Of a stretch of 59,771 nt of DNA, positions 13,875 to 56,351 are shown piece by piece. Source of the DNA: Bacteroidota bacterium. Its GTDB lineage: Bacteria; Bacteroidota; Bacteroidia; Chitinophagales; Chitinophagaceae. The notes below the pieces were generated by a model. It did no database searches and was not told where the DNA came from. It saw only the letters and a program-made list of their open reading frames with translations. The stretch lies in assembly GCA_013288445.1 (NCBI GenBank), contig JABDBX010000003.1, forward strand, positions 1 to 59,771. The letters are read 5' to 3'. Position numbers and translations under genes: made by a program. Each line of letters begins with the position of its first letter. Position 1 is the stretch's first letter.

Positions 13875-16800
13875 TTACACCACCACATTTATCATCTTGC
13901 CTTTTACATAAATGAACTTCTTTGGGTCTTTGCCTTCCAACCATTTCTGGATGGTATCGTTTGCAAGGACTTCTTTTTCCACTGAGGCTTGCTCGGCATC
14001 TATCGGGAATTCCATTTCTATGCGGGTCTTGCCGTTTACGGCTACTGGGTACACTTTGGTGTTGTCGGTTACAAAGCGCTGTTCGTAGGCAGGGAAGGCG
14101 GCGTTAAGCACCGTGCCTTCGTTGCCCAGCTTATGCCATAGCTCCTCGGCTATGTGCGGCGCAAACGGGCATATAATCACGGCCAAAGGCTCCAGGATCT
14201 CGCGCTTGTGGCACCCACTTAGTTCATTCACACAAATCATGAATTGGCTTACGGCAGTATTGAACGAGAACCGCTCTATGTCCTCTCCTATTTTCTTTAT
14301 GGTTTTGTGCAATATGCGCAGCTCTGCGTCGGTTGCCTTTTCATCGTTCACTATCCACCCCTTTTGTTCATCGGCATACAGGCGCCACATTTTTTTCAGA
14401 AAGCGGTGCACACCTTCTATGCCCTTTGTGTCCCAGGGTTTGCTCACGTCTATAGGGCCCAGGAACATCTCGTACATACGGAAGGTATCCGCGCCATATT
14501 GCGATACTATGTCGTCCGGGTTCACCACATTGTACTTGGATTTGGACATTTTTTCGACTTCTGCACCGCAGATATACTTGCCATCTTCTAAAATAAATTC
14601 TGCATCTGCATATTCAGGTCTCCATTTTTTAAATGCTTCTATGTCTAATTCAACGCCGTCAACCATATTCACGTCAACACGAATTGGATTTATGTCGTAG
14701 TGTTTTTTAAGTCCTGCCGATACAAACTGATTGGTATCGCTAATCCGATAGACAAACCTTGTACTCCCTTGTATCATCCCCTGGTTTAGCAGCTTCTTAA
14801 ATGGCTCATCAAAGCCTATGTGGCCGAGGTCATACAGCGCCTTTGTCCACATGCGGCTGTAGAGGAGGTGGCCTACGGCATGTTCGGTGCCGCCTATGTA
14901 CAGGTCCACCTGGTTCCAGTAGTCGGTGGCGGGGCGGCTGGCAAATTCGTTGCTGTTGTGTGGGTCCATGTAGCGGAGAAAGTACCAACTGCTGCCGGCA
15001 TAGCCGGGCATGGTATTGGTCTCGCGCTGGCCTATTGGGGTGGTTACCCAGTCTTCTATATTGGCAAGTGGTCCCTGCCCTTCCGGGCCGGGCTTGTAGT
15101 TCTCTACTATCGGCAATTCCACAGGCAGGTGGCCCAGGTGCCAGTCGCTGTTTATAAGCGGCTCATCTATGCCATACGGTATGTCGTCCACATACATCAC
15201 CGGGAAAGGCTCACCCCAGTAACGCTGGCGGCTAAAACCAGCATCGCGCAGGCGGTAGTTGACTTTTCGTGTGCCCGCGCCAATATCTTCCAGCTCTTCA
15301 ATAGCAGCTTCGGTGGCATCGGCTATGCTCATACCCGTTAGAAAATCGCTATTCTCTATAGTTCCGGTTTTACTGCTATACGCTGCTTCCCCGGTGTATT
15401 TGTCTCCAAAAATATTAGTGATGGGTATGTCGAAATGTTTTGCAAAAGCATGGTCGCGGTCATCACCGCTAGGCACACCCATTATGGCTCCAGTGCCATA
15501 GCCTGCAAGCACATACTCCGATATCCAAACAGGTATCTGCCTATCAGTCAGTGGATGAATAGCGTACGCCCCGGTAAAGCAACCTGTCACCTGTTTTACC
15601 TCGCTCATGCGCTCGCGCTCTGAGCGGCTTTTTACGTATTGCCGGTATTCGTCAATGGCCTGCTTTTGTTCTGGGGTTGTAATGTCTTCTACCAGGGCAT
15701 GTTCCGGTGCCAGCACCATGAAATCAACACCGAAGATGGTATCGGGGCGGGTGGTGAAGACGGGGATAAAAACCTCTCCCCGGCCCTCTCCAAAAGAGAG
15801 GGAGGTGTTACGTACCTCATTATCTGATTGTGGGGACGTTAATTCTGTTTTTATTTTCCTTATTACGTTATCAAGATCGGCAATTACCTCTTCGTTGGTA
15901 AATCGCATAACCCTGAAACCTTTTTCTGCCAAATATTCAGTACGGGATGCATCAGCTTCCTTCTGCTGTTCATGAATTTTACCATCAACCTCAATAATAA
16001 GGTTCTTTGGCAGACATACAAAATCTGCAATAAACCTTCCAATTATATGCTGCCGCCTAAACTTAACGCCAAGTTGGCTGGCCTTTAACTGTCGCCATAA
16101 TATATTTTCTGCTTCGGTAAGGTTGTTTTTTAAATCTTTTCTAAAATCCTTAATCGAACCATAAAGAAGAGGATCAGCCGTATTCCAACCTGGCTCAACA
16201 CGGGCTTGCGCAACACCTCCCTCTCCTTTGGAGAGGGCTGGGGAGAGGTCTCTCGCGTTGGTCTGCGCAACATCTCCCTCTCTTTTGGAGAGGGTCGGGG
16301 AGAGGTTGGATAGCCTAAACCTCACCTCCGCTCCATTACTCTTTCCTATCCAGTTGCGCTGCATTTCTTTCATGGCCTCGCTCCAGTCCAGCGTATTAAG
16401 GCTGGTAAGAAGGCGGTCGGCATACTCAGTGATACGCAGAAACCACTGGCGCATGTTCTTCCTTTCCACCGGGTGACCGCCGCGTTCCGATACTCCATTT
16501 ACTACCTCATCGTTAGCCAATACCGTGCCCAATGCCTCGCACCACCACACCTGTGCGTAGCCTTGGTAGGCAATGCGGTATTGCATCAGTATATCGCGCT
16601 GCTCTTTCTCTGAATAGTTGCCCCACTGCACGGCATCAAACTCTACTGCCTCATCGGCCGGGCATGTAATATTTATGTTGCCTCCTTTTTCAAATTCGGC
16701 TACCAGCTCACTTATTGGCCGTGCCTTTTGCTGGCTACGATCGTACCAGCTATGGAATAGTTGCAGGAATATCCACTGCGTCCATTTATAATAGTTAGGT

Positions 16801-17183
16801 TCACTGGTACGCACCTCGCGGCTCCAGTCGTAGCAGAAGCCTATGTTATCCAGTTGCTCCCGGTAGCGGGCTATATTTTTTTCGGTGGTTACAGCAGGGT
16901 GCTGGCCTGTTTCTATAGCATACTGTTCGGCAGGCAGCCCAAATGCATCGAAGCCCATTGGGTGCAGTACATTGTAGCCTTTCAGTCGCTTGTAGCGCGC
17001 ATAAATATCAGATGCGATGTAGCCGAGCGGATGCCCCACATGCAGCCCTGCCCCGCTGGGGTAAGGGAACATATCCAGTATGTAGCACTTGGGCTTAGAG
17101 GTGTCGTTAGTTACTTTATAAACCTGTTGTTCGTTCCAGTATTTTTTCCGGCCTGCTTCTATTTCCCTAAAATTATACTCCAT
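13875..17183 (-). CDS. leuS: Leucyl-tRNA synthetase with a 179-aa in-frame insertion in the CP1/editing-domain entry
   Basis: MFPYPSGAGLHVGHPLGY, TTRPDTIFGVDFMVLAPEH, GYAGSSWYFLRYMDP, EKMSKSKYNVVNPDD (KMSKS). 1102 aa, or about 923 aa without the insert, which is normal LeuRS size. Confidence 0.96.
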   Translation of the reverse strand: MEYNFREIEAGRKKYWNEQQVYKVTNDTSKPKCYILDMFPYPSGAGLHVGHPLGYIASDIYARYKRLKGYNVLHPMGFDAFGLPAEQYAIETGQHPAVTTEKNIARYREQLDNIGFCYDWSREVRTSEPNYYKWTQWIFLQLFHSWYDRSQQKARPISELVAEFEKGGNINITCPADEAVEFDAVQWGNYSEKEQRDILMQYRIAYQGYAQVWWCEALGTVLANDEVVNGVSERGGHPVERKNMRQWFLRITEYADRLLTSLNTLDWSEAMKEMQRNWIGKSNGAEVRFRLSNLSPTLSKREGDVAQTNARDLSPALSKGEGGVAQARVEPGWNTADPLLYGSIKDFRKDLKNNLTEAENILWRQLKASQLGVKFRRQHIIGRFIADFVCLPKNLIIEVDGKIHEQQKEADASRTEYLAEKGFRVMRFTNEEVIADLDNVIRKIKTELTSPQSDNEVRNTSLSFGEGRGEVFIPVFTTRPDTIFGVDFMVLAPEHALVEDITTPEQKQAIDEYRQYVKSRSERERMSEVKQVTGCFTGAYAIHPLTDRQIPVWISEYVLAGYGTGAIMGVPSGDDRDHAFAKHFDIPITNIFGDKYTGEAAYSSKTGTIENSDFLTGMSIADATEAAIEELEDIGAGTRKVNYRLRDAGFSRQRYWGEPFPVMYVDDIPYGIDEPLINSDWHLGHLPVELPIVENYKPGPEGQGPLANIEDWVTTPIGQRETNTMPGYAGSSWYFLRYMDPHNSNEFASRPATDYWNQVDLYIGGTEHAVGHLLYSRMWTKALYDLGHIGFDEPFKKLLNQGMIQGSTRFVYRISDTNQFVSAGLKKHYDINPIRVDVNMVDGVELDIEAFKKWRPEYADAEFILEDGKYICGAEVEKMSKSKYNVVNPDDIVSQYGADTFRMYEMFLGPIDVSKPWDTKGIEGVHRFLKKMWRLYADEQKGWIVNDEKATDAELRILHKTIKKIGEDIERFSFNTAVSQFMICVNELSGCHKREILEPLAVIICPFAPHIAEELWHKLGNEGTVLNAAFPAYEQRFVTDNTKVYPVAVNGKTRIEMEFPIDAEQASVEKEVLANDTIQKWLEGKDPKKFIYVKGKMINVVV
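15771..16307 (-). mobile_element. DUF559/Vsr-like endonuclease cassette bounded by about 38-bp terminal inverted repeats, inserted in frame in leuS
   Basis: Ends: AACCTCTCCCCGGCCCTCTCCAAAAGAGAGGGAGGTGTTACG (plus, from 15771) and AACCTCTCCCCGACCCTCTCCAAAAGAGAGGGAGATGTTGCG (minus, from 16307). Length 537 bp = 179 codons. Encodes FRKDLKNNLTEAENILWRQLKASQLGVKFRRQHIIGRFIADFVCLPKNLIIEVDGKIHEQQKEADASRTEYLAEKGFRVMRFTNEEV. Confidence 0.85.
16211..16250 (+). repeat. Additional internal copy of the cassette terminal repeat
   Basis: CAACACCTCCCTCTCCTTTGGAGAGGGCTGGGGAGAGGT, offset exactly 57 bp (19 codons) from the outer right copy at 16268-16307. Confidence 0.85.
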
Positions 17184-39919: not shown

Positions 39920-40429
39920 TTAGTTGTAGTTAACAGTTATTGGAACTGCCGTAGAATTGGTGTAAGCGTTTGGAGCCTGTGCAGCAGATACTGTAAGTGT
40001 AGCGCCTACGGTAAGTGTCTGTGTGCCGCCTGCGCTCAATGTACCGGTAGCTGATGGTGTGCTGGTGAAAGTGCCCATGCTCATAGTGTGAGAAGAACCA
40101 TCAGACAATGTAGCTGTAGAAGGTAAAGTGATAGCGTAAGTATATGCTGCTGTACCAGATACGGTAAAGTTAGCTGCTGCTACAGTACCCTGAGTTGCTG
40201 GAAGGGTAACGCCACCGGTTGCAGAACGTGTGCTGGCTGGGGCAAGAACTACTGTACCGCCTGAGGAAGGAGAAACTGCGATGTTACCGAAGTTCATGTT
40301 GGTAACTAAAGCAATAGTGATCGGTGTGATGATCGTTGCTGAGGCAGATGCTGTTGCTGTTGCCTGGGCGAAAGAGTTGTTAACTGAACAACCGAGGATC
40401 ATTGTGGATGCTTTGCTCATTTTCGGCAT
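39920..40429 (-). pseudogene. DUF4402 protein, 5' end replaced by element sequence
   Basis: NNSFAQATATASASATIITPITIALVTNMNFGNIAVSPSSGG... matches DUF4402-like organisation, but the N-terminus MPKMSKASTMILGCS overlaps the recombinase 3' end and lacks a proper signal-peptide core. Confidence 0.65.
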
Positions 40430-41879
40430 TTTGGAAATAGGACGGGTGGTATCGGAATCCGATCACCACCTCATCACCAGCAAGGGTTATCTTGCTGGTG
40501 TTACGCTCGACAAAGCTGCGTTTAGCGGCTTTGTCGAGCGTACTCCATCTCTCATACATTGTTTGCGCCTCCTGTTTAACACTGTCCCCGTTGAGGTGCT
40601 CGATTTTCAAAAGGTCAATTTCTGATTCAATTTTCGGTATGCTGTTCTCTATCTGCCGCAGTTGCAGGTCAAGAGGGGTGTAGTAGCTCCCGAACCTATC
40701 TTTTGGAATTTGCCCCGCCATATACAATTCCATTTTCATATCCATTTCCGCCTGAATCCGTTTTTTCTCGTTCTGAAACCCGGCAAGGATCGTTTCCTTT
40801 TCCGAAATTTCGTGTTTTGTTTTTGAAAGAAAATTGTCAAAATGCGAATCGGTCAAAAGATATATTTTCAATTGGGAAAAATATATGTCCTCCATGTCCG
40901 AGGTGTCAATTTTTGTTTTTCTACATTTGACGCACTTGTACTTTCCGCCGTCCGGGTGGTGGTACATCTTTCCGCCACAGCCGCAATACAGCAAACCGGA
41001 AAAAAGTTGGGTTACGGTTTTGGTCTGGCGTTTCAGTTTTTCTCCTTGCTCACGTAAAAATGCGTTGCACGCCTCCCACAATTCCTCCGATACAATGGCC
41101 GGGCAGGTAAGGTACACCCATTCGCTCTCCGGCTTTATGATGGACGTTTTACCACGCCCCGGACTTTTGCTGTAGTTAGCTACCCGGATACCTTTTGCCG
41201 TACTGTCGCGCAACAGCCAATCTACGGTCGAATCGCTAAAGAGGACATTGTTCCGGGTACGGTAGCCCATTTCGTTGAGTTTCCGGGCTACGACCTTCTT
41301 CTTTTTGCATTCGGCAAATAGCTGGAACATAAGTTTGCGCACGGCGGCTTCGCTTGGCTTAATGACCAGTTCTTTGTTTTTCCACTCGTAGCCATATGGG
41401 GCAACTCCGCCAAGCGGTTTGCCCATTTTCGCCCGTATAGGCACCGATGCGGCCACACGCTCCGCGATCTCTGCCCGTTCCCATTCGGCCATTGCAGCGA
41501 TAATGGTGAAGAATAGCCGCCCTGACGGGCTGCTGGTGTCTATGTTCTCCGCAAGGGAGATCATGTCTGCTCCTGCTTTCCGAAACATCTCGGAGAACTC
41601 TAACAGTTCCTTTGTATTTCTGGCTAACCGGGCCAGCTTTGAGAACACGAGGGCATTGATATGTCCATTGTGAATATCCCGGAGCATTCTTTTTGTTTCC
41701 GGCTGCTCCATGACGGTTTTGCCGGAAATGGCATCAAGGCGATATACCTCTACGATCTCCCAACCTTTGGCCTCGGCATAATACCGCGCCCGTTGCTCGT
41801 GGTGTTCCGGGCTTTCGTCCTTAACCTGAAATTCGGTAGATACCCGTATCCAAATGCCGATCCGCTTTTTCTGTTCCAT
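40380..41879 (-). CDS. Large serine recombinase (resolvase N-domain, recombinase domain, zinc ribbon)
   Basis: GIWIRVSTEFQVKDESPEHHEQ, VFSKLARLARNTKELL, GLLYCGCGGKMYHHPDGGKYKCVKCRK. Confidence 0.95.
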   Translation of the reverse strand: MEQKKRIGIWIRVSTEFQVKDESPEHHEQRARYYAEAKGWEIVEVYRLDAISGKTVMEQPETKRMLRDIHNGHINALVFSKLARLARNTKELLEFSEMFRKAGADMISLAENIDTSSPSGRLFFTIIAAMAEWERAEIAERVAASVPIRAKMGKPLGGVAPYGYEWKNKELVIKPSEAAVRKLMFQLFAECKKKKVVARKLNEMGYRTRNNVLFSDSTVDWLLRDSTAKGIRVANYSKSPGRGKTSIIKPESEWVYLTCPAIVSEELWEACNAFLREQGEKLKRQTKTVTQLFSGLLYCGCGGKMYHHPDGGKYKCVKCRKTKIDTSDMEDIYFSQLKIYLLTDSHFDNFLSKTKHEISEKETILAGFQNEKKRIQAEMDMKMELYMAGQIPKDRFGSYYTPLDLQLRQIENSIPKIESEIDLLKIEHLNGDSVKQEAQTMYERWSTLDKAAKRSFVERNTSKITLAGDEVVIGFRYHPSYFQNAENEQSIHNDPRLFS

Positions 41880-43902: not shown

Positions 43903-44160
43903 TTGCCGAAGTACCTAATGCATGAGAATGAGAAAAATATTGAAAGCAATCCTATTCCGCAAAATTCCAGCACTATTGTAGATTCCTCCGGCAGCACAGC
44001 CGATAATGGTAAAAAATCAAAGTTCACTTTTGAAGAACGGCAACGGCTGTTAGGGTTCTTCTCCATACTCCTCAAAGTGGATAAGCGTATAAATCCCGAC
44101 TATTATAAGCCTAAACAAAATAACGACAATGAAAGCGATACGACTGGCGCGGGTATCTGA
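43903..44160 (+). CDS. Hypothetical protein, 3' end overlapping the recombinase start
   Basis: 85 aa; 32-bp overlap with the next gene. Confidence 0.5.
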   Translation: MPKYLMHENEKNIESNPIPQNSSTIVDSSGSTADNGKKSKFTFEERQRLLGFFSILLKVDKRINPDYYKPKQNNDNESDTTGAGI

Positions 44161-45694
44161 TAAAAAGCAAGATTCCAATGAGGCGCAGGTCGTGCGTATT
44201 TCCGATTACATTAAATACAAAGACCTCACCATTTGGAAAACACATGAGATTGAGGAATCCTCAACCCGAGGGGATAGAACAAAATTTCAAGAAGTTATTA
44301 AGGAAATAAAGCAATCAAAAGAATGTATTGCTTTGGTAGTGGATACCGTTGACCGCTTGCAGCGCAGCTTTAAAGAATCCGTATTACTGGATGATTTGCG
44401 CAAAGCCGGGAAACTGGAAATTCATTTTTACCGTGAGAATCTTGTCATACATAAGAACTCAAATAGTGCAGACCTGCTCCGCTGGGATATGGCGGTTATG
44501 TTTGCACGTAGCTATATACTGCAATTGAGCGACAACGTAAAGCGAAAGTTTGAGCAAATGCGAAGAAATGGTATTTGGGTAGGTAAGGCACCAATTGGTT
44601 ACAAAAACATCGGGGACGAAAAGAACCGGGATATTATACCCGACCCTGAAAAGTCGCACCTTATTCAAAGATTGTTTGAGTTGTATTCCACCGGCTCATA
44701 CTCCATTCAGCTATTGAGCGTTCAAATATCCAAAGAAGGACTGCGTGGCAGTTTAGGTAAGCCGCTCGTGCCGGGCATGGTGTACAACATTCTCAATAAC
44801 CCTTTCTATTACGGAGAAATGCTTACCGCAGGGCAGATATTCCCACACCGATATATGCCGCTCATTTCAAAAGAGCTTTTTGATCTGTGTCAAAAAAGAA
44901 TGAAGGGATGGAATAAAAACCAATTTCAGTATGCCGCAAAGACATTCATCTTTCGCGGTCTGCTTCGCTGTGCCAAATGTGGCTGTGCCATGAGCCCGGA
45001 GATAAAGAAAGGCAAGTATATCTATTATAGCTGCACAACCGCACGTAAGGCTATTTGTAGTAAAAAAATATTTGTACGAGAAGAAGCCCTATTAAAACCG
45101 ATATACAAGGTTTTAGAGGCTTATGAGGGCATTCCGCAGGAAACTATAAACGAGATCATTGATATTATGGCTACGTCGAATGAGCATGAAATTACATTCA
45201 ATGTAGAAGCCATTAAAACACTTCGTGGTGAATACGATGCAATCCAAGTTAAACAAAACAGGCTTACTGACTTGCTTTTGGAAGGTACTGTTACCACGGA
45301 AGTTTACGAAGTGAAATTAAAGGAATTTAAAACCCGCCAGCGGGACATTAACCAACAGATTGAGAACCACACCAGCGCAGACGAAAGCTACCATATCACC
45401 GCAACCAACGTACTCCGGCTGGCTAAAAATGCTCTTGCTTTGTTTAAAAGTTCTGAACCTCTTGAAAAAAGATCATTGCTAAATTTGCTACTTCAGAACT
45501 CGACCGTAAACGGAAAAAACCTTGAATTTACCTTGCGATCTCCATTCAATACCATCTATGATATTGCAATTCACTCTACGGGGCGGGGCGCACTGGATAC
45601 GTTTAGAACTCTCGACTGGAAACACATAAAGGCCGACTTAGATAAATATAATAGCGAACAGGTCTCACAAGACTTGTTAAAAATAGCATGTTAA
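44129..45694 (+). CDS. Second large serine recombinase
   Basis: IRLARVSDKKQDSNEAQVVRI, VVDTVDRLQRSFKES, GLLRCAKCGCAMSPEIKKGKYIYYSC. Confidence 0.93.
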   Translation: MKAIRLARVSDKKQDSNEAQVVRISDYIKYKDLTIWKTHEIEESSTRGDRTKFQEVIKEIKQSKECIALVVDTVDRLQRSFKESVLLDDLRKAGKLEIHFYRENLVIHKNSNSADLLRWDMAVMFARSYILQLSDNVKRKFEQMRRNGIWVGKAPIGYKNIGDEKNRDIIPDPEKSHLIQRLFELYSTGSYSIQLLSVQISKEGLRGSLGKPLVPGMVYNILNNPFYYGEMLTAGQIFPHRYMPLISKELFDLCQKRMKGWNKNQFQYAAKTFIFRGLLRCAKCGCAMSPEIKKGKYIYYSCTTARKAICSKKIFVREEALLKPIYKVLEAYEGIPQETINEIIDIMATSNEHEITFNVEAIKTLRGEYDAIQVKQNRLTDLLLEGTVTTEVYEVKLKEFKTRQRDINQQIENHTSADESYHITATNVLRLAKNALALFKSSEPLEKRSLLNLLLQNSTVNGKNLEFTLRSPFNTIYDIAIHSTGRGALDTFRTLDWKHIKADLDKYNSEQVSQDLLKIAC

Positions 45695-46727: not shown

Positions 46728-47324
46728 CTATACCTTTAAGTTCAAATGCTTAGACACAGCGGTTTCGATTTTAAGAATAGCTGCATCAATTTCATCCTTT
46801 AGCTTGTTTGGTGTTGTGTTGTTATAAACCTTTTGAGATATAGATGCTAAATGTTCAAAATTATTTGTCACTCCGACCAATTGAATGTACTCATTGACCG
46901 CATCATTATATTTTGATACAACCAAATTTATATCCCAACAGACTTTTATTACCTCTTTCCCCAATAGCACTTCCACTTCCGGAAATACACTATAGAAATT
47001 GTTAAGTGCCTCCTGAAATGGCTTATATCTGTTGTTCAAACAATAGATCAAATTTTCGCGCTCATAATTATCTTCATTTTCAGCAGCTCTCGGCAACATT
47101 TCCCCGGCATAAGTTAGCGGTGAGCGCATACTCATAAATTGATCTCGCAAAGTATATGCCGATTTTAAAAACTTGAAAGAACAGTCAAAATAAACTTTCG
47201 CTTTATACTCTTTCTTCCACTTATCAATAGTGAATAACGCAAGAAAAAATGTTGCAATTGGTATGGCTATTAGCACTACATCCTTAACAGTATCAAGCGT
47301 ACTTGTTGTCGGTTGGTACGGCAT
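46728..47324 (-). CDS. Hypothetical protein with one N-terminal TM and helical cytoplasmic domain
   Basis: 198 aa, DVVLIAIPIATFFLALFTI TM. Confidence 0.65.
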   Translation of the reverse strand: MPYQPTTSTLDTVKDVVLIAIPIATFFLALFTIDKWKKEYKAKVYFDCSFKFLKSAYTLRDQFMSMRSPLTYAGEMLPRAAENEDNYERENLIYCLNNRYKPFQEALNNFYSVFPEVEVLLGKEVIKVCWDINLVVSKYNDAVNEYIQLVGVTNNFEHLASISQKVYNNTTPNKLKDEIDAAILKIETAVSKHLNLKV

Positions 47325-48647: not shown

Positions 48648-48728
48648 TGCCCTGTTTTTTGTTTGTATATCACTATCAGTATTTCCGTCCTTCTTTTTTC
48701 CTCTCTCCCTAAAACATATCCTTTGAAC

Positions 48729-49910
48729 ATGAAAGGATATGACAAGCATTCGATCACGCCCATAGGGATCACCAACTACCGGAACACCAGCGTACCGTTT
48801 GGCATTACGGATACGGACAGGCTGGCGCATATTTTTTGCATTGGTAAAACCGGGGTCGGTAAAAGCACGCTCCTCACCAATATGGCTATCTCCGACATAC
48901 AGAAAGGCAAAGGTCTCTGTGTCATTGATCCGCACGGAGACGTTGCAGAAAACCTTTTGAGCCATGTACCCGAACACCGCAAGAAAGACCTCATATACCT
49001 TAATCCGGCAGACCCGGCAAACGGCATTGCCTTTAACCCGCTACACAGTGTTCACCCGAATTACCACTACCTCGTTGCCTCCGGCCTCGTGTCTGTATTC
49101 AAGAAGATATATGCGGATTCATGGGGGCCGCGCATGGAACATATCATGCGCTTTGTGTTTCTGACACTGCTTGAATATCCCGATGCTACGCTACTTGATA
49201 TACAGCCACTTCTTACCGATACCCTGCACCGGGACAAGATACTTGGGTATGTAAAGAATGAACACACCATAGCATTCTGGCAAAAAGAGTTCCTGAAATA
49301 TGCCCCAACACTTCGCGCCGAAGCCATTGCCCCGATATTGAACAAGACCAGTCTGTTTCTTACCAATACGGCACTTCGTAAGATAGTCGGGCAAAAGACA
49401 AACAGCTTTCGTATGCAACAGGTATTAGACGGTGGAAAGATATTGATCTGCAACCTTAGCAAAGGACAGATCGGGGAAGATGCTTGTTTGCTGCTCGGCA
49501 GTATGCTGGTAACCTTTATCCAGCTTGCAGCCCTGTACCGGGCAAAGCAACCGGAACACCAGCGCAGACCGTTCTTTCTCTACATTGACGAATGCCAGAG
49601 CTTCATAACGCTTAGCTTCACGGACATGTTGGCGGAAGCCCGTAAGTACGGACTTGGGGTGTTCATGGCTAATCAGTTCTTAGACCAGCTACATGACAAG
49701 ATACGGGCTGCGATTTTTGGGAACTGTGGGTCGGTTATATCCTTTCGGGTGGGTGCGAATGATTCTGAACTGTTGGCTAAAGAGTTCTTTCCGGTGTTTG
49801 ATGCAACCGATCTGGTGCATTTGCCGCGCTACGGCATGTACCTAAAACTCATGATTGACGGGGCTACCAGTCAGCCGTTTAGTGCAGGAGCATTTTTCAA
49901 AAAAGCTTGA
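48729..49910 (+). CDS. HerA/VirD4-like type IV secretion DNA-binding ATPase
   Basis: FCIGKTGVGKSTLLTNMAISDI, LCVIDPHGDVAENLL, FFLYIDECQSFI; start moved to MKGYDKHS. Confidence 0.9.
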   Translation: MKGYDKHSITPIGITNYRNTSVPFGITDTDRLAHIFCIGKTGVGKSTLLTNMAISDIQKGKGLCVIDPHGDVAENLLSHVPEHRKKDLIYLNPADPANGIAFNPLHSVHPNYHYLVASGLVSVFKKIYADSWGPRMEHIMRFVFLTLLEYPDATLLDIQPLLTDTLHRDKILGYVKNEHTIAFWQKEFLKYAPTLRAEAIAPILNKTSLFLTNTALRKIVGQKTNSFRMQQVLDGGKILICNLSKGQIGEDACLLLGSMLVTFIQLAALYRAKQPEHQRRPFFLYIDECQSFITLSFTDMLAEARKYGLGVFMANQFLDQLHDKIRAAIFGNCGSVISFRVGANDSELLAKEFFPVFDATDLVHLPRYGMYLKLMIDGATSQPFSAGAFFKKA

Positions 49911-49941
49911 CAAAACAAATGCTTAAAGCTGTTAAGATAAT

Positions 49942-50394
49942 CTATTGGGCTAAAATATGTTGATTAGCTTCTAAGGCTTTATCTTCTAAAAAGCCCATTT
50001 TGTAGGTTTCAATACCGGCATTGCTCAACAATTTTTCCCCAACACACGATACAAAATTTGCAGGTTCAGAGGCTGCATAAAAGACCCTTTGGAATTGATT
50101 TTCAATAATCAAATTACTACATGACTTTGGCTTGGAATTTCTTTGTGAGCACGGTTCCATAGAAACATACATTGTTGCATTAGCAATGTTTTCTTTCTGT
50201 TGCAATGCTTTTATTATCGCTTCTTCTTCGGCATGATTTGTAGAGCTTGTCTCTCTACTATATCCGGTATAAACGTGGTTATTTTCCAAAACGATTACAG
50301 CACCAACAGAATACGCTGTCATGGATTTTGGGGATTCTTGGCTTAATTCAATTGCCCGTTCTAAATAAGCAATATCTTTTCTATAAAAAATCAT
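49942..50394 (-). CDS. RibD N-domain-like cytidine/pyrimidine deaminase
   Basis: TNHAEEEAI, MYVSMEPCSQRNSKPKSCSNLI (HAE...PCxxxxxxxxC). Confidence 0.85.
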   Translation of the reverse strand: MIFYRKDIAYLERAIELSQESPKSMTAYSVGAVIVLENNHVYTGYSRETSSTNHAEEEAIIKALQQKENIANATMYVSMEPCSQRNSKPKSCSNLIIENQFQRVFYAASEPANFVSCVGEKLLSNAGIETYKMGFLEDKALEANQHILAQ

Positions 50395-51056
50395 TTTAAA
50401 CTAAAATACATTACTCCAACATCACCAAATTTCTTAACCTCTTTGAGATACATTCGATTGTCTTTCCCAAATGGAAATACACCTTCTTTTACAAGCCTGG
50501 GTGCTTTGCTTTCACCAACAAAGAAAGGAGCAATGGCTAATCTAAATTCATTAACCAAATTTTCTTTGAAAAACATTGTAAGTATGCTTGACCCTCCTTC
50601 CACGAACAAACTTTTTACACCTTCTTTTTCAAGTGCATTAAGAATATCTTGGCCGGTAATATCTTTTTGAGGAATTTTAATAATAGTCGCTACTGCCGAT
50701 AGTTCGTTTAGACTATTAGTGTCGGCATTATCATTTGCTATAACGATTTTTTGACAATTGCCTTTTTGAAAAAACTTTAGATCAGGGCTAATTTTACCAC
50801 TTGTTGTTACTGTTACTTTGATTGGGTCTTCACACTGCCCTTTATTCTTCCGCAACTCTTTGAGTTCGTCGCTATATGTAATCAACGAGGGATTATCTTT
50901 TCGGACTGTTTCTGCACCAACCAAAATTGCATCGGCTTCTGCTCGCATCTCTCTAACTTCTGCAAAATCTTCTTCGCTGGACAATATCAGTCTATTTGGT
51001 GAAAGATCATCTAAATATCCATCAATTGAAATTGCTGCCGAGATTATTACTTTCAT
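50391..51056 (-). CDS. RibD C-domain/DHFR-like reductase
   Basis: ISAAISIDGYLDD, ADAILVGAETVRKDNPSL, KSLFVEGGSSILTMFF; 4-bp ATGA overlap with the deaminase. Confidence 0.87.
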   Translation of the reverse strand: MKVIISAAISIDGYLDDLSPNRLILSSEEDFAEVREMRAEADAILVGAETVRKDNPSLITYSDELKELRKNKGQCEDPIKVTVTTSGKISPDLKFFQKGNCQKIVIANDNADTNSLNELSAVATIIKIPQKDITGQDILNALEKEGVKSLFVEGGSSILTMFFKENLVNEFRLAIAPFFVGESKAPRLVKEGVFPFGKDNRMYLKEVKKFGDVGVMYFSLK

Positions 51057-51744
51057 GTTTTTTTATTGTTTTACATTGTTCTGCAATGTACTTTCTTGTA
51101 ATTGCACTTATAGCGATAAAATGCAAAGCTATCAAAATTGCTGATAGGAAAAAAAATATCACCCTTATCACTGTAATATCACATACACACAGGTAGGTAA
51201 AAGTTAACAAAAAACTTATAGAGGGACACAAAAAAATAAAGTTTCTTAATTTACTTAACCACAGTCCTATTTTGACAGTTTTATAAAAATGTGTCAAATA
51301 CTTTTCCCATTGAAATATTAGAATATCTGTATGTTTTTGTAAAGTTTCTTTAATATAGTGTTCAATATAGGCTACACTACAGAAAATTCTAAATTTTTCA
51401 TAGAGATGCATAAGCCCAAAAATTGTAAAAATTGGAATAGGAACGAGTAGTATCTCTGGCCATGATACAATAAAGTCTCTTACACTTGTCTGGCTTACTA
51501 AACCAAGAAAAATACCAATGCCAACAATTGAAAAATTAACCGTTTGGACTTCCAAGGAAACTAATTGGTTAATCAAATCTCTTTGAGTTTGATATTCTAA
51601 AAGCAAAATCTGCAATCCTAACTTTTCTCTATTATTACCTTCGTTTTCGTTGGTATCTACAATACTTTTTATGTCTTGTGCTATTTCGGTTAGTACAAGG
51701 CTAAGAAGTTTAGATAAGTATTTCTTTATAACATCAGATGCCAT
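51022..51744 (-). CDS. Multi-TM membrane protein upstream of and overlapping the RibD-like reductase
   Basis: 240 aa, about 4 TM segments; 35-bp overlap with the next gene. Confidence 0.7.
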   Translation of the reverse strand: MASDVIKKYLSKLLSLVLTEIAQDIKSIVDTNENEGNNREKLGLQILLLEYQTQRDLINQLVSLEVQTVNFSIVGIGIFLGLVSQTSVRDFIVSWPEILLVPIPIFTIFGLMHLYEKFRIFCSVAYIEHYIKETLQKHTDILIFQWEKYLTHFYKTVKIGLWLSKLRNFIFLCPSISFLLTFTYLCVCDITVIRVIFFFLSAILIALHFIAISAITRKYIAEQCKTIKKHESNNLGSNFN

Positions 51745-51815
51745 ATTTATATTTTGTCTTTTCTATGTTGATGTATTTACAGATTGAATTTGTAATTATT
51801 TTTAGTAACGTTCTT

Positions 51816-54770
51816 TTATTTATTTCCATTCAAGTTAGGTATAGAAGTATCAAACTCCACCTTAACCCGATACCCCTTAACCACTGTTTCAGCCGGAACA
51901 TTCTGTACCATCTGCCGGTCAAAAAACAGGATCACTTCATCAGGCGAAAATGTGTAAACCTTAGCAAGCTGTTTCTTATTTAGTTTGCTTTCAAGCTGTG
52001 TCCGTATGCGCTGCAAATTCGGTGCATCATTGGAGCAAACAATTACTTCGTCATAGCCTGCGGAAAGGCATTTCTCAACATTGTGCGCTTCCCATTCATC
52101 GCCCGTGGTAACAGATATTTCACAGGCAATTTTCTTGCCTGCTTTTTCAAGGCTCACATCAACCCGTCCTTTTCCATCTGGTATCATTTCCTCAATACTG
52201 GCTTTGTAGCCCCGCGATTCAGCCATACGTTTAATGAAGTTCTGCAAGTACCTGTGCAGGGTCTCGACTTTCTTGCCAATAGAGCCTTTTGATTTCGGTA
52301 TCTCTACTGACGTAAATCGTTCCGGTGCGGGTTTCTCCTGCACAGGTGCGGTTGGCGCAGGCTCGGCAACAGGCTCTTTGGCAACAGTTCCTAAATGCTC
52401 CAAACTTGCCTCTACGATCTCTTTCTTTGTGCCGTACTTCTCGCGTGAATGCGATATTACCAGTTTAGTAGTAGCCTCGGCTTCATACACGTCAATTTCC
52501 GGCAGGGGTATTGTCGTCAAACTAAAGTCCAGGTTCGGTTGCTCGATTCGTGCAATGGCTTCTCCAGTATGCAGGTTTTCCAAGTCCTGTGCATCAAAGT
52601 ATGAGAAGCCGTTGGCAAAGCGTTTCGCGTCCGTGTCGCCAAGCCGGAAGCATATCCGTGTTCCGGCATTCACTACAACGGAACTGGCAAGCTCGGTATC
52701 ATACTTCTGTAACTGTTGCATGTCTTGGTGAGCAAGGATAAGCCCTAAGTGGTACTTTCTTGCCCCGCTCAATATATGTGACATGGATGGCGTAACAAAG
52801 TTTTGGAACTCATCTATGTACAAAAAGAAATCGTTGCGGTCTGCCTTGCTCTTGGCCTGCCTTGCCATTGCCGCCTGGTACATCTTTGAGACAAAGAATG
52901 TACCGAGCAAAAAACTGTTCTCTGCGCCTATCAAGCCTTGTGATAGCTTTACCAGCAATATTTTCCGGGTATCAAGTATGTGTTCAAAATCCAGCCCTTT
53001 CTTTTGAGCCACCATGTTGCGGATCAGCTTAGGCCGCAAAAAGGTATCTAACCGTGTAAGTATTGACCCTATGGAATTGCTTTTTAAAAGCGGGTACTCA
53101 TGCTGCCAGTAATATACGACATGGGGATCGTTGACGGTTTTAAGGTAAGCGTTTCTGAACGATGATTCTACCAAGAACCTGCGCAGGTCAAGCAATGTGC
53201 CGCCATCCTTGCTCTCTAAGAAAGCAAGGATGGCGTTTGCAAGTACGCTGTTCATCTGGTCGCCCCAAGAAGTGCTTAGGCGCTTGAATGCCGCTACCAG
53301 ATCAGAGGAAAGTATTTCTTTCTCAATCTCTGAATGAGCGGACAATATATTAAAGGCTACAGGATATTCACCGTCTGCTGGATCAACTAATATCACATCG
53401 TTGACCCGCTCTCGTGGCACATGGGCAAGTATGGTTTCAATCAGGTCGCCGTGCGGATCAAGCACTGCAAGGCCGTTACCATGCCGCATGTCTTGCCCGA
53501 TCATGGAAAGAAGCAACGTAGATTTGCCCGTGCCGGTCGCACCAATGATATGAGTATGCCTAAGCCTTAGGCTCTCCGGTACGCTTACTAAATTCTGCTG
53601 CCCGTGATATGTATTTAGCCCAAGTACCATTTTTTGGCCGTGCGTGCTCTCCGGCGCAATTTTAGTCTTGCGAATATTGCGCACAACTTTTGGCGATGCA
53701 ATTTCAGGCGTAGGAAAGTGTACAAGGGTGGCAAGCTCGTTGCAGTTTAAGAGCATACCGAGGCGGTGGGTGTCCCGGAGCAGTATGTCGTCAATCATTT
53801 GCCGCGTGATGTAGCCTTCCTGGGCCAATATATCCAGCCGGTTGCATGAGGACTTTGTGAGGCGCGTAAGAGCCGCACTAATATTCTTCGCTATGGAAAT
53901 GGCCCGGTCGCTTCTCTCCGCTTGCGCGGCTACTTTCACGCATACGGCAAAGAGCGGCACAGATACCTTTGCCTGCGCGTACTTCACCATTTCAGGTGCA
54001 TCGGCAAAAAATGAGCCGCCCCGACCATCCGTAACGGCTCGCATAATGCTTTCCGCCCAGGGATTGCCTGCGCCTTTAAATAATATCTGCACTATGCCAC
54101 ATTCACCCTTGCCAATATTTTCAAGTGTGGCAAACAAACCAACATATGGATCATGCTCTAATTCACTCGCCATGAGAATGGGACACATGAACTCATTGGT
54201 TAAGCCAAAATCAACCGGACATATAGGGTCTTTGCCGTCAAGTGTTTGAAAGGCATCTTAGCTTTTGGTTATGACCGCATTTGGAAAGTAGGCTTTTGCC
54301 TGTTCATACACATGGGCCGCATCGCTTGTGCGGCAGGCAAATTGCAAAGTGATTGTAGAAGCAGTCGCTACGATCTCAAAACTCACAGGATAGGTAGTGT
54401 AGGAAAGCATAATGAGCAACTGGCAGATGTCCTCGACTTCCATTTTTTCGCCTTTGGGCAATACAATGGCAAATGTTTCTATCGGCTCGTTGCAGTACAG
54501 GTAATGCCCCTCTACGGGCGGTATGTCATACAGATCGTTGTATGGTTCCGGCTCTTCCTCAACCTTCTTTTTGAAAAGCCCGGCAATGCTGCTTAACAGC
54601 GAAAGCTGCACCCCGTCGTCTTGTATTCGTTGGGGCGGCAGATAGTGGCCGAAGAACGGGAAAAAAATAGGTTCCGGGTCAATGTAGGAATCACAGACAT
54701 GCCAGCCCCGGCCACGCTGTTCCCATGCGTAGAAGCGGTTGGTTAGTTCCTGTGAAATGAGCGATGCCAT
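51816..54770 (-). pseudogene. HerA/VirD4-like DNA-translocating ATPase with C-terminal nuclease-like domain, split by a single in-frame TAA
   Basis: ORFs 54258-54770 and 51816-54188 share a frame: ...FPNAVITKS*DAFQTLDGKDPICPVDFGLTNEFMCPILMASELEHDPYVGLF.... Walker A GATGTGKSTLL, Walker B DFFLYIDEFQNF, C-terminal GRVDVSLEKAGKKIACEISVTT. Confidence 0.8.
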
Positions 54771-55288: not shown

Positions 55289-55502
55289 CATACCATAAGT
55301 GTTTTTTATGTGAAGAAATAATTGAGATACGCATAATTGCGTTTCAGAAAAGTACAAAAAAATATTTCACACATACAAGTTTGCAACCCAAAAATATTTC
55401 AAGCCTTTACCATTTGTGGTATATCCGACCTCCTTACTTCCTGCTCCATTCCTTTCTACACTGTGTCTGAACAATTTTTCTTTCACAAAAAAATATAGCA
55501 AC

Positions 55503-56351
55503 ATGGAGACGCAAACAGCGACTACAAAAAAACGTGAGCAAAAAGACACGCACTTAACCATTACCAGATGGATCATTGAGAAACTGCGCGAAGGAATAGT
55601 GCCTTGGCAGGTATCATGGACTAAGGCCGGACTGCCGGTAAACCTTGTTACTGGCAATGTGTACCGAAGCGTTAACAGGATCATTCTGGCCTCGCTCGGC
55701 TATTCCCGCAACTTGTTTTTGACCTCAAAGCAACTCAAAGGGTTGGACGGCGCGATACTGGCCGAAGAAAGGCCGCACCTTATTTCCTTTTACGGCGAAG
55801 GCAAAACGGAAACGACCAATGTTGAGGCAGACAATGACAAAAAGGAATTGTTGCCTTACACGGTATTTAACATCGCCCAATGCAAGTGGGATACAGGCAA
55901 AACATTCCCGGAAGCGACAGTAGAACTTGACCAGCTACAGGACATTGTGAGCATTAAATCGAAAGATCAAAAGCTGACATATTACGACCCCTGTTTCGAC
56001 TTCATCAACTTGCCGCACGAAAAGAACTTCCCGAACAAACAGGCATATTGCGAGGCTCAATTTCACCAGCTAATGCACAGCACAGGCCATCATACCCGGC
56101 TCAACAGGAAAGACCTTATCCAAATGTCAGAGTTTGGCTATGATTCATTTTCTCATGAGGAACTTGTAGCCGAAATTGGTACTGCTTACCTCATGTCTCA
56201 CTTTGGCTATGCAAAGGAAGTTGCGCCTACAAAGGAATACCTGGACGGTTGGATACAGAAATTGGAACAGGACAAGTACCTCATATTCTCGGCTGCGCTA
56301 CAAGCTGAAAAGGCTATTAGCTTTCTGTTTCTCGGAGAAACAGGAACGTGA
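55503..56351 (+). CDS. ArdC-like ssDNA-binding domain plus zincin-like metallopeptidase (HQxxH variant)
   Basis: ITRWIIEKLREGIVPWQVSW...LVTGNVYRSVNRIILA; FHQLMHSTGHHTRLNR; SHEELVAEIGTAYLMS. Confidence 0.88.
   Translation: METQTATTKKREQKDTHLTITRWIIEKLREGIVPWQVSWTKAGLPVNLVTGNVYRSVNRIILASLGYSRNLFLTSKQLKGLDGAILAEERPHLISFYGEGKTETTNVEADNDKKELLPYTVFNIAQCKWDTGKTFPEATVELDQLQDIVSIKSKDQKLTYYDPCFDFINLPHEKNFPNKQAYCEAQFHQLMHSTGHHTRLNRKDLIQMSEFGYDSFSHEELVAEIGTAYLMSHFGYAKEVAPTKEYLDGWIQKLEQDKYLIFSAALQAEKAISFLFLGETGT

Follow-up and report, generated by a model that had tools for sequence, protein, structure and literature searches.

In textbook bacterial riboflavin synthesis, deamination comes first and reduction second, and one fused enzyme carries out both steps. 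The locus described here raises the question of what a RibD-type reductase and a RibD-type deaminase are for when they are encoded by two genes in the opposite order, preceded by a gene for a membrane protein and enclosed by two ATPase genes. It lies at position 49942-51744 of the window, by which we mean the whole stretch of DNA that was analyzed (59,771 nucleotides), and consists of three overlapping minus-strand genes in the order A (membrane protein), B (reductase) and C (deaminase). We think it likely that B and C form a Rib7/Rib2-type pair which would do the work of RibD in reverse order, and that they are accessory cargo gained horizontally. This explanation draws on protein family, residues, trees, operon layout and the in-place replacement of RibD in Eremiobacterota, from which substrates and activity are predicted. 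The features of the element that bear on the question are as follows.

40380..41879, minus strand: serine recombinase, 45-47% identical to recombinases adjoining the large ATPase in related elements
44129..45694, plus strand: second serine recombinase of the element
48663..49910, plus strand: small TraD/HerA-like ATPase, left border of the slot
49911..51815, no strand: cargo interval, occupying all of the slot from one ATPase gene's 3' end to the other's (empty-slot comparison)
49942..50394, minus strand: gene C, CDA-superfamily deaminase, Rib2-like, 150 aa (Pfam, AoRib2 alignment, residue test, tree)
50391..51056, minus strand: gene B, RibD_C-fold reductase, archaeal Rib7-like, 221 aa (Pfam, TIGR01508, structure match)
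51022..51744, minus strand: gene A, orphan membrane protein, 240 aa (ORF, hydropathy)
51816..54188, minus strand: large TraD/HerA-like ATPase, right border of the slot; the N-terminal part is encoded apart from it, by an ORF at 54258-54770
55416..56351, plus strand: ArdC-like anti-restriction gene of the element backbone

A cargo slot in a family of related elements

Genes A and B overlap by 35 bp and genes B and C by 4 bp (ATGA). The GC content is 0.295 for A, 0.356 for B and 0.355 for C, against 0.480 for both flanking ATPase genes and 0.452 for the window, and third-position GC is 0.24-0.29 in the cargo genes vs. 0.51 in the adjacent ATPase gene. Open reading frames, overlaps and composition thus bear out an earlier note on this DNA, which had described three overlapping minus-strand genes that are AT-richer than their flanks; the ORF layout likewise confirms the reductase-first order that it reported, with no other riboflavin gene near the pair on the element. 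The same note had placed the genes between two convergent HerA-like ATPases. Position and convergence hold, however the best profile scores of both ATPases are to coupling ATPases of the TraD/VirD4 type (TrwB_AAD_bind, T4SS-DNA_transf, SXT_TraD), with weaker matches to HerA/DUF87. Predicted promoters and terminators within the cargo were in no excess over chance, and the sole match in a search for target-site repeats at its edges was 9 bases long, the length expected by chance.

Some observations on other parts of the window can be added. Related elements encode the large ATPase in one ORF of ~1000 aa, whereas it is two ORFs here (170 + 790 aa), and therefore it may be frameshifted or mis-assembled. 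A second AT-rich orphan on the element (46728-47324, minus strand) encodes a protein of 198 aa, hydrophobic over a stretch at its N-terminus, that has no significant family match. The leucyl-tRNA synthetase ORF at 13875-17183 (minus strand) appears, by eye, to carry an inserted stretch resembling a DUF559-type endonuclease domain.

Elements with the same two ATPase genes are present in other genomes of the family. In one genome of the same genus (L171), with a small ATPase 77% identical to that of the window, the convergent ATPase genes are separated by 57 bp and flanked in the same order as here (geneX, ArdC, HTH); this slot is an empty site. Another locus (L172) has 311 bp between the ATPase genes. 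Both borders were read in 13 loci, of which nine contain cargo and four have little or none, and the interval between the ATPase genes is a genuine hotspot for cargo. Cargo for scanning was picked by eye, and as such the counts of defense-type cargo below give no rate.

L136, 9845-12306: complete-looking Pycsar operon (PycC, PycTM, E2-like) in the equivalent slot (PADLOC)
L135, 10827-14751: three-gene cargo, a 750-aa PDC-M65B/PRTase-CE-like protein and two genes without match (PADLOC candidate conflict system)
L178: TIR-like candidate (PADLOC)
L182: E1-E2/JAB (PADLOC)
L185, 8592-12820: Hachiman HamB-type helicase with a 272-aa neighbor, adjoining the small ATPase
L187: E1-E2/JAB-like genes, adjoining the small ATPase
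L180: Avs2-like NTPase, adjoining the small ATPase
L190: GmrSD-like gene, adjoining the small ATPase
L170: radical SAM protein in the slot, cargo that is not defense-like

In a search of 396 Bacteroidota genomes the only close copy of gene B was that of the window itself. The other 395 genomes gave no match with E below 1e-20, and the distant matches (E above 1e-17) are long frames of the size of a fused RibD, bar one frame of 257 codons. A close copy is also absent from 34 other genomes of the genus. The empty site in the same genus, together with this absence of close copies of B from genus and phylum, is what assigns the genes to cargo.

Family assignment of the reductase and the deaminase

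Gene B passes the Pfam gathering score for RibD_C (PF01872) (1.7e-39; 136.1 bits vs. 24.1). Against TIGR01508, the archaeal reductase model, it scores 135.1 bits, below the equivalog cut-off of 186.45, and for that reason we term it Rib7-like rather than filing it as a member. Like the archaeal and fungal Rib7 reductases (MmRib7, 5xux; MjRED, 2azn; ScRIB7, 4ha7), it is a stand-alone RibD_C fold of ~220 aa; unlike them, it is bacterial and paired in an operon with a deaminase. Its best solved relative is 5xux, from Methanosarcina mazei. A profile built from ten such split reductases also finds archaeal Rib7 members as the best matches among solved structures (5xux, 8e-44; 6p8c, 7e-35; 2azn, 5e-29), with bacterial RibD behind at 2e-23 and Rv2671 and similar RibD_C proteins as weak relatives. 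In a tree the split reductases form one branch apart from fused RibD (93/100).

Gene C carries a dCMP/cytidine deaminase domain (Pfam, 1.3e-19) and the zinc motifs HAE and PCx9C, which correspond to the HxE and PCx8-9C of the Rib2 type. In the fungal enzyme AoRib2 the ribitol and phosphate of DARIPP are contacted by Arg105, Ser107, and Glu136, among others, whereas BsRibG uses Lys79, Asp101, and Asn103 (Chen et al., PMC8256712). We aligned nine split deaminases and 22 RibDs (20 fused RibDs and two RibD structures) to AoRib2 (7drz). Equivalents of Arg105 and Glu136 occur together in all nine split bacterial deaminases, gene C included, and in none of the 22 RibDs; every RibD has Asp at the Glu136 position, and the Arg105 equivalent is found in 0 of 22. 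In gene C the corresponding stretches read PCSQRNSKPKSC and SEPANFV, the Ser107 equivalent is present, and the Lys79/Asp101/Asn103 set of the RibG type is not matched. The residue equivalent to Asn59 of AoRib2, a phosphate contact, is Thr in gene C and variable across the other split deaminases, which is why gene C is called Rib2-like and not filed as a Rib2 member. It further differs from AoRib2 in being bacterial, in its length of 150 aa and in lacking the fungal C-terminal extension. The tree places the split deaminases with AoRib2 against all RibDs (98/94) on a long AoRib2 branch, and both a phmmer search with gene C alone and a profile of all nine split deaminases rank some RibDs above AoRib2. 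With so long a branch, and with scores that fail to tell AoRib2 from RibD, the Rib2 assignment is carried by the residues first and by the tree second. The match of active-site residues to the Rib2 of the riboflavin pathway also leaves the earlier suggestion of modified-pyrimidine chemistry unsupported; the one PADLOC match of gene C is partial and weak (dCTPase, 23 bits).

As in the bifunctional RibD/RibG of bacteria, the two proteins are predicted to catalyze the same two reaction types and belong to the same superfamilies. They differ from it in being two proteins in reversed gene order, with other substrate-binding residues and on a separate branch of the tree. Against TIGR00326, the RibD equivalog, they score 93 and 65 bits vs. 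a cut-off of 156, and in place of the fused, deaminase-first architecture of bacterial RibD there are two ORFs with the reductase first.

The host assembly (3.05 Mb, 65% complete) encodes its own fused RibD (381 aa) outside the window, on contig C20, and three further DHFR-like RibD_C proteins. Whether the host has a complete ribD of its own had been raised at the outset; it has, and B and C are consequently extra copies, as expected of mobile cargo that is not the host's sole RibD. GTP cyclohydrolase II was not found in the assembly, from which nothing follows, as 65% completeness can explain its absence.

Based on these assignments, gene B would form DARIPP by reducing the ribose in the product of GTP cyclohydrolase II, and gene C would then deaminate DARIPP to ARIPP. 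We infer this order for B and C from their sequences, and the reductase-first operon fits it because Rib2 acts after Rib7. In this reading the pair was gained horizontally: an integrative element carries it in a slot whose contents change among related elements and are often of the defense type. The role of the pair would be that of a non-housekeeping accessory which supplies or diverts an intermediate of the flavin pathway independently of the host RibD.

Relatives of the pair and the orphan gene A

The near relatives of gene B are found in a Rikenellaceae MAG (L009, 50% identity), in two Eremiobacterota-type MAGs (L010 and L011, 40-42%) and on ~50 Streptomyces plasmids (up to 45%), SLP2 among them. 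The reductase is directly followed by the deaminase in all loci read closely but one, a Streptosporangium locus (L110) where no deaminase was found beside the reductase. In both Eremiobacterota-type MAGs the pair is part of the riboflavin operon, with a ComF-like gene on one side and ribE on the other; in L011 an HTH-RibBA gene follows downstream within 4 kb. Neither assembly holds a RibD_C gene besides that of the pair. A relative of these two genomes (L205) has a fused RibD at the equivalent place, where a ComF-like gene precedes it, ribE follows and the downstream dehydrogenase is the same, and the other matching genomes of this phylum have the reductase domain in frames of fused-RibD size. 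In the Rikenellaceae MAG, where GTP cyclohydrolase II is present, the pair follows a metallophosphoesterase gene with an overlap of one base and its reductase is the only RibD_C gene. The three assemblies agree, allowing that MAGs may be incomplete, and the pair appears able to stand in for RibD.

The pair on Streptomyces plasmids (SLP2, pSCL2, and others) resembles that of the window in being reductase then deaminase, overlapping and on mobile DNA, with a reductase 38-45% identical. In contrast to the window, its partner in the plasmid loci read is not a membrane protein; the pair follows a gene for an HTH-TPR protein, often with a GntR gene as well. Two actinobacterial-looking viral contigs carry the HTH-TPR gene and the reductase, with no deaminase gene noticed adjoining. 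A literature search, of partial coverage and with no priority claimed, returned no description of a bacterial Rib7/Rib2-type pair, nor anything linking RibD or Rib2/Rib7 to phage defense.

The product of gene A has a long helical N-terminus and approximately four hydrophobic segments (66-84, 91-116, 168-190 and a stretch continuing to about 217). The ORF is genuine rather than random, as none of 3000 shuffles reached the length of its 246-codon open frame, and judging from the 35-bp overlap the gene is probably translated together with the pair. Searches against Pfam and NCBIfam gave no significant match and PADLOC a partial one (Csm2, 20 bits); models of known small membrane effectors, PycTM and the others in Pfam and PADLOC, gave none of significance. 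No convincing relative was found in plasmids, in viral contigs, or in genomes drawn from the phylum (396) and from the family (399), two matches near E=0.0005 being short fragments with an internal stop that were left uncounted. Membership of a known effector family is rejected on these grounds. A single-sequence AlphaFold2 model (pLDDT 49, pTM 0.28) was too poor for use. The expectation in the earlier note that the membrane protein would accompany the RibD-like pair fails within the range of these searches: gene A is absent beside the pair in every other locus read, and the three-gene unit is accordingly known from one place.

Possible roles of the cargo and their meaning

The purpose of the pair can be argued along three lines: ordinary flavin supply, bypass of an inhibitor and phage defense. 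Plain metabolic cargo is a possibility that we hold to be tentative yet substantial. Extra riboflavin steps would raise the supply of flavin or of 5-amino-6-ribitylaminouracil, or would back up a weak or incomplete host pathway, with gene A being transporter-like or unrelated. The pair's apparent service as a working RibD substitute in Eremiobacterota and the Rikenellaceae MAG speaks for this role, whereas the intact fused RibD of the host and the lack of any other rib gene near the pair on the element speak against it, as do the relatives on Streptomyces plasmids, where the regulator gene preceding the pair in the loci read points to a conditional role.

An anti-phage module, with the pair producing or using up a metabolite of the flavin pathway upon infection and the four-TM protein A acting as membrane-damaging effector or as sensor, is unlikely in our estimation, though it deserves some weight. 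This proposal concerns the role of the genes and is compatible with the enzymatic reading. A membrane gene translationally linked to an enzyme is a usual layout of signal-plus-effector systems, and gene A is probably linked to the pair in this way; the host already has RibD; and the idea gains positional support from the defense-like genes in the slot or ATPase neighborhood of related elements, namely Pycsar, Hachiman HamB, E1-E2/JAB (L182 and L187), and the TIR-like, Avs2-like, and PRTase-CE candidates. Likeness to Pycsar and other membrane-effector defense operons extends to the coupling of a membrane protein with small-molecule enzymes and to Pycsar's equivalent slot, but the cargo has neither a cyclase nor a PycTM match and its enzymes come from families of the riboflavin pathway. 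PADLOC has no model that matches B, the matches of A and C are partial and weak, A is without relatives and does not travel with the pair elsewhere, the slot also takes non-defense cargo such as the radical SAM protein and is sometimes empty, and the arrangement occurs once. The specific version, an immune module whose Rib7/Rib2-type pair controls the four-TM effector by converting an intermediate of the riboflavin pathway into a signal or by depleting that intermediate, we regard as distinctly unlikely.

Bypass of an inhibitor is improbable. With its different residues and its reversed order, a substitute for RibD could resist an antimetabolite directed against RibD or a folate reductase and be carried like a resistance gene, and the differing substrate-binding residues, the mobile occurrence and the weak relationship to RibD_C proteins such as Rv2671 agree with this; however, no resistance gene is linked and gene A matches no exporter family. 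Finally, the notion of a housekeeping RibD broken in two within this lineage, suggested by two adjacent genes that carry both RibD-type domains, has next to no probability and is ruled out by the separate fused RibD of the genome, the position of both proteins outside fused RibD in the trees, the residue test and the reversed domain order, so that the earlier picture of RibD split into two halves is not borne out.

Whatever the role of this particular cargo, the hotspot between the ATPase genes deserves to be mined for new defense systems. Should the pair prove to belong to a defense module, phage immunity would be seen to trade in a new currency, flavin intermediates. As a Rib7/Rib2-type pair, the genes would belong to a bacterial set with archaeal and fungal-type residues and order, one that spans at least three phyla, is often carried by mobile DNA and replaces RibD in one lineage. 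Such a pair would show that the order of these two reactions is not fixed by domain of life.
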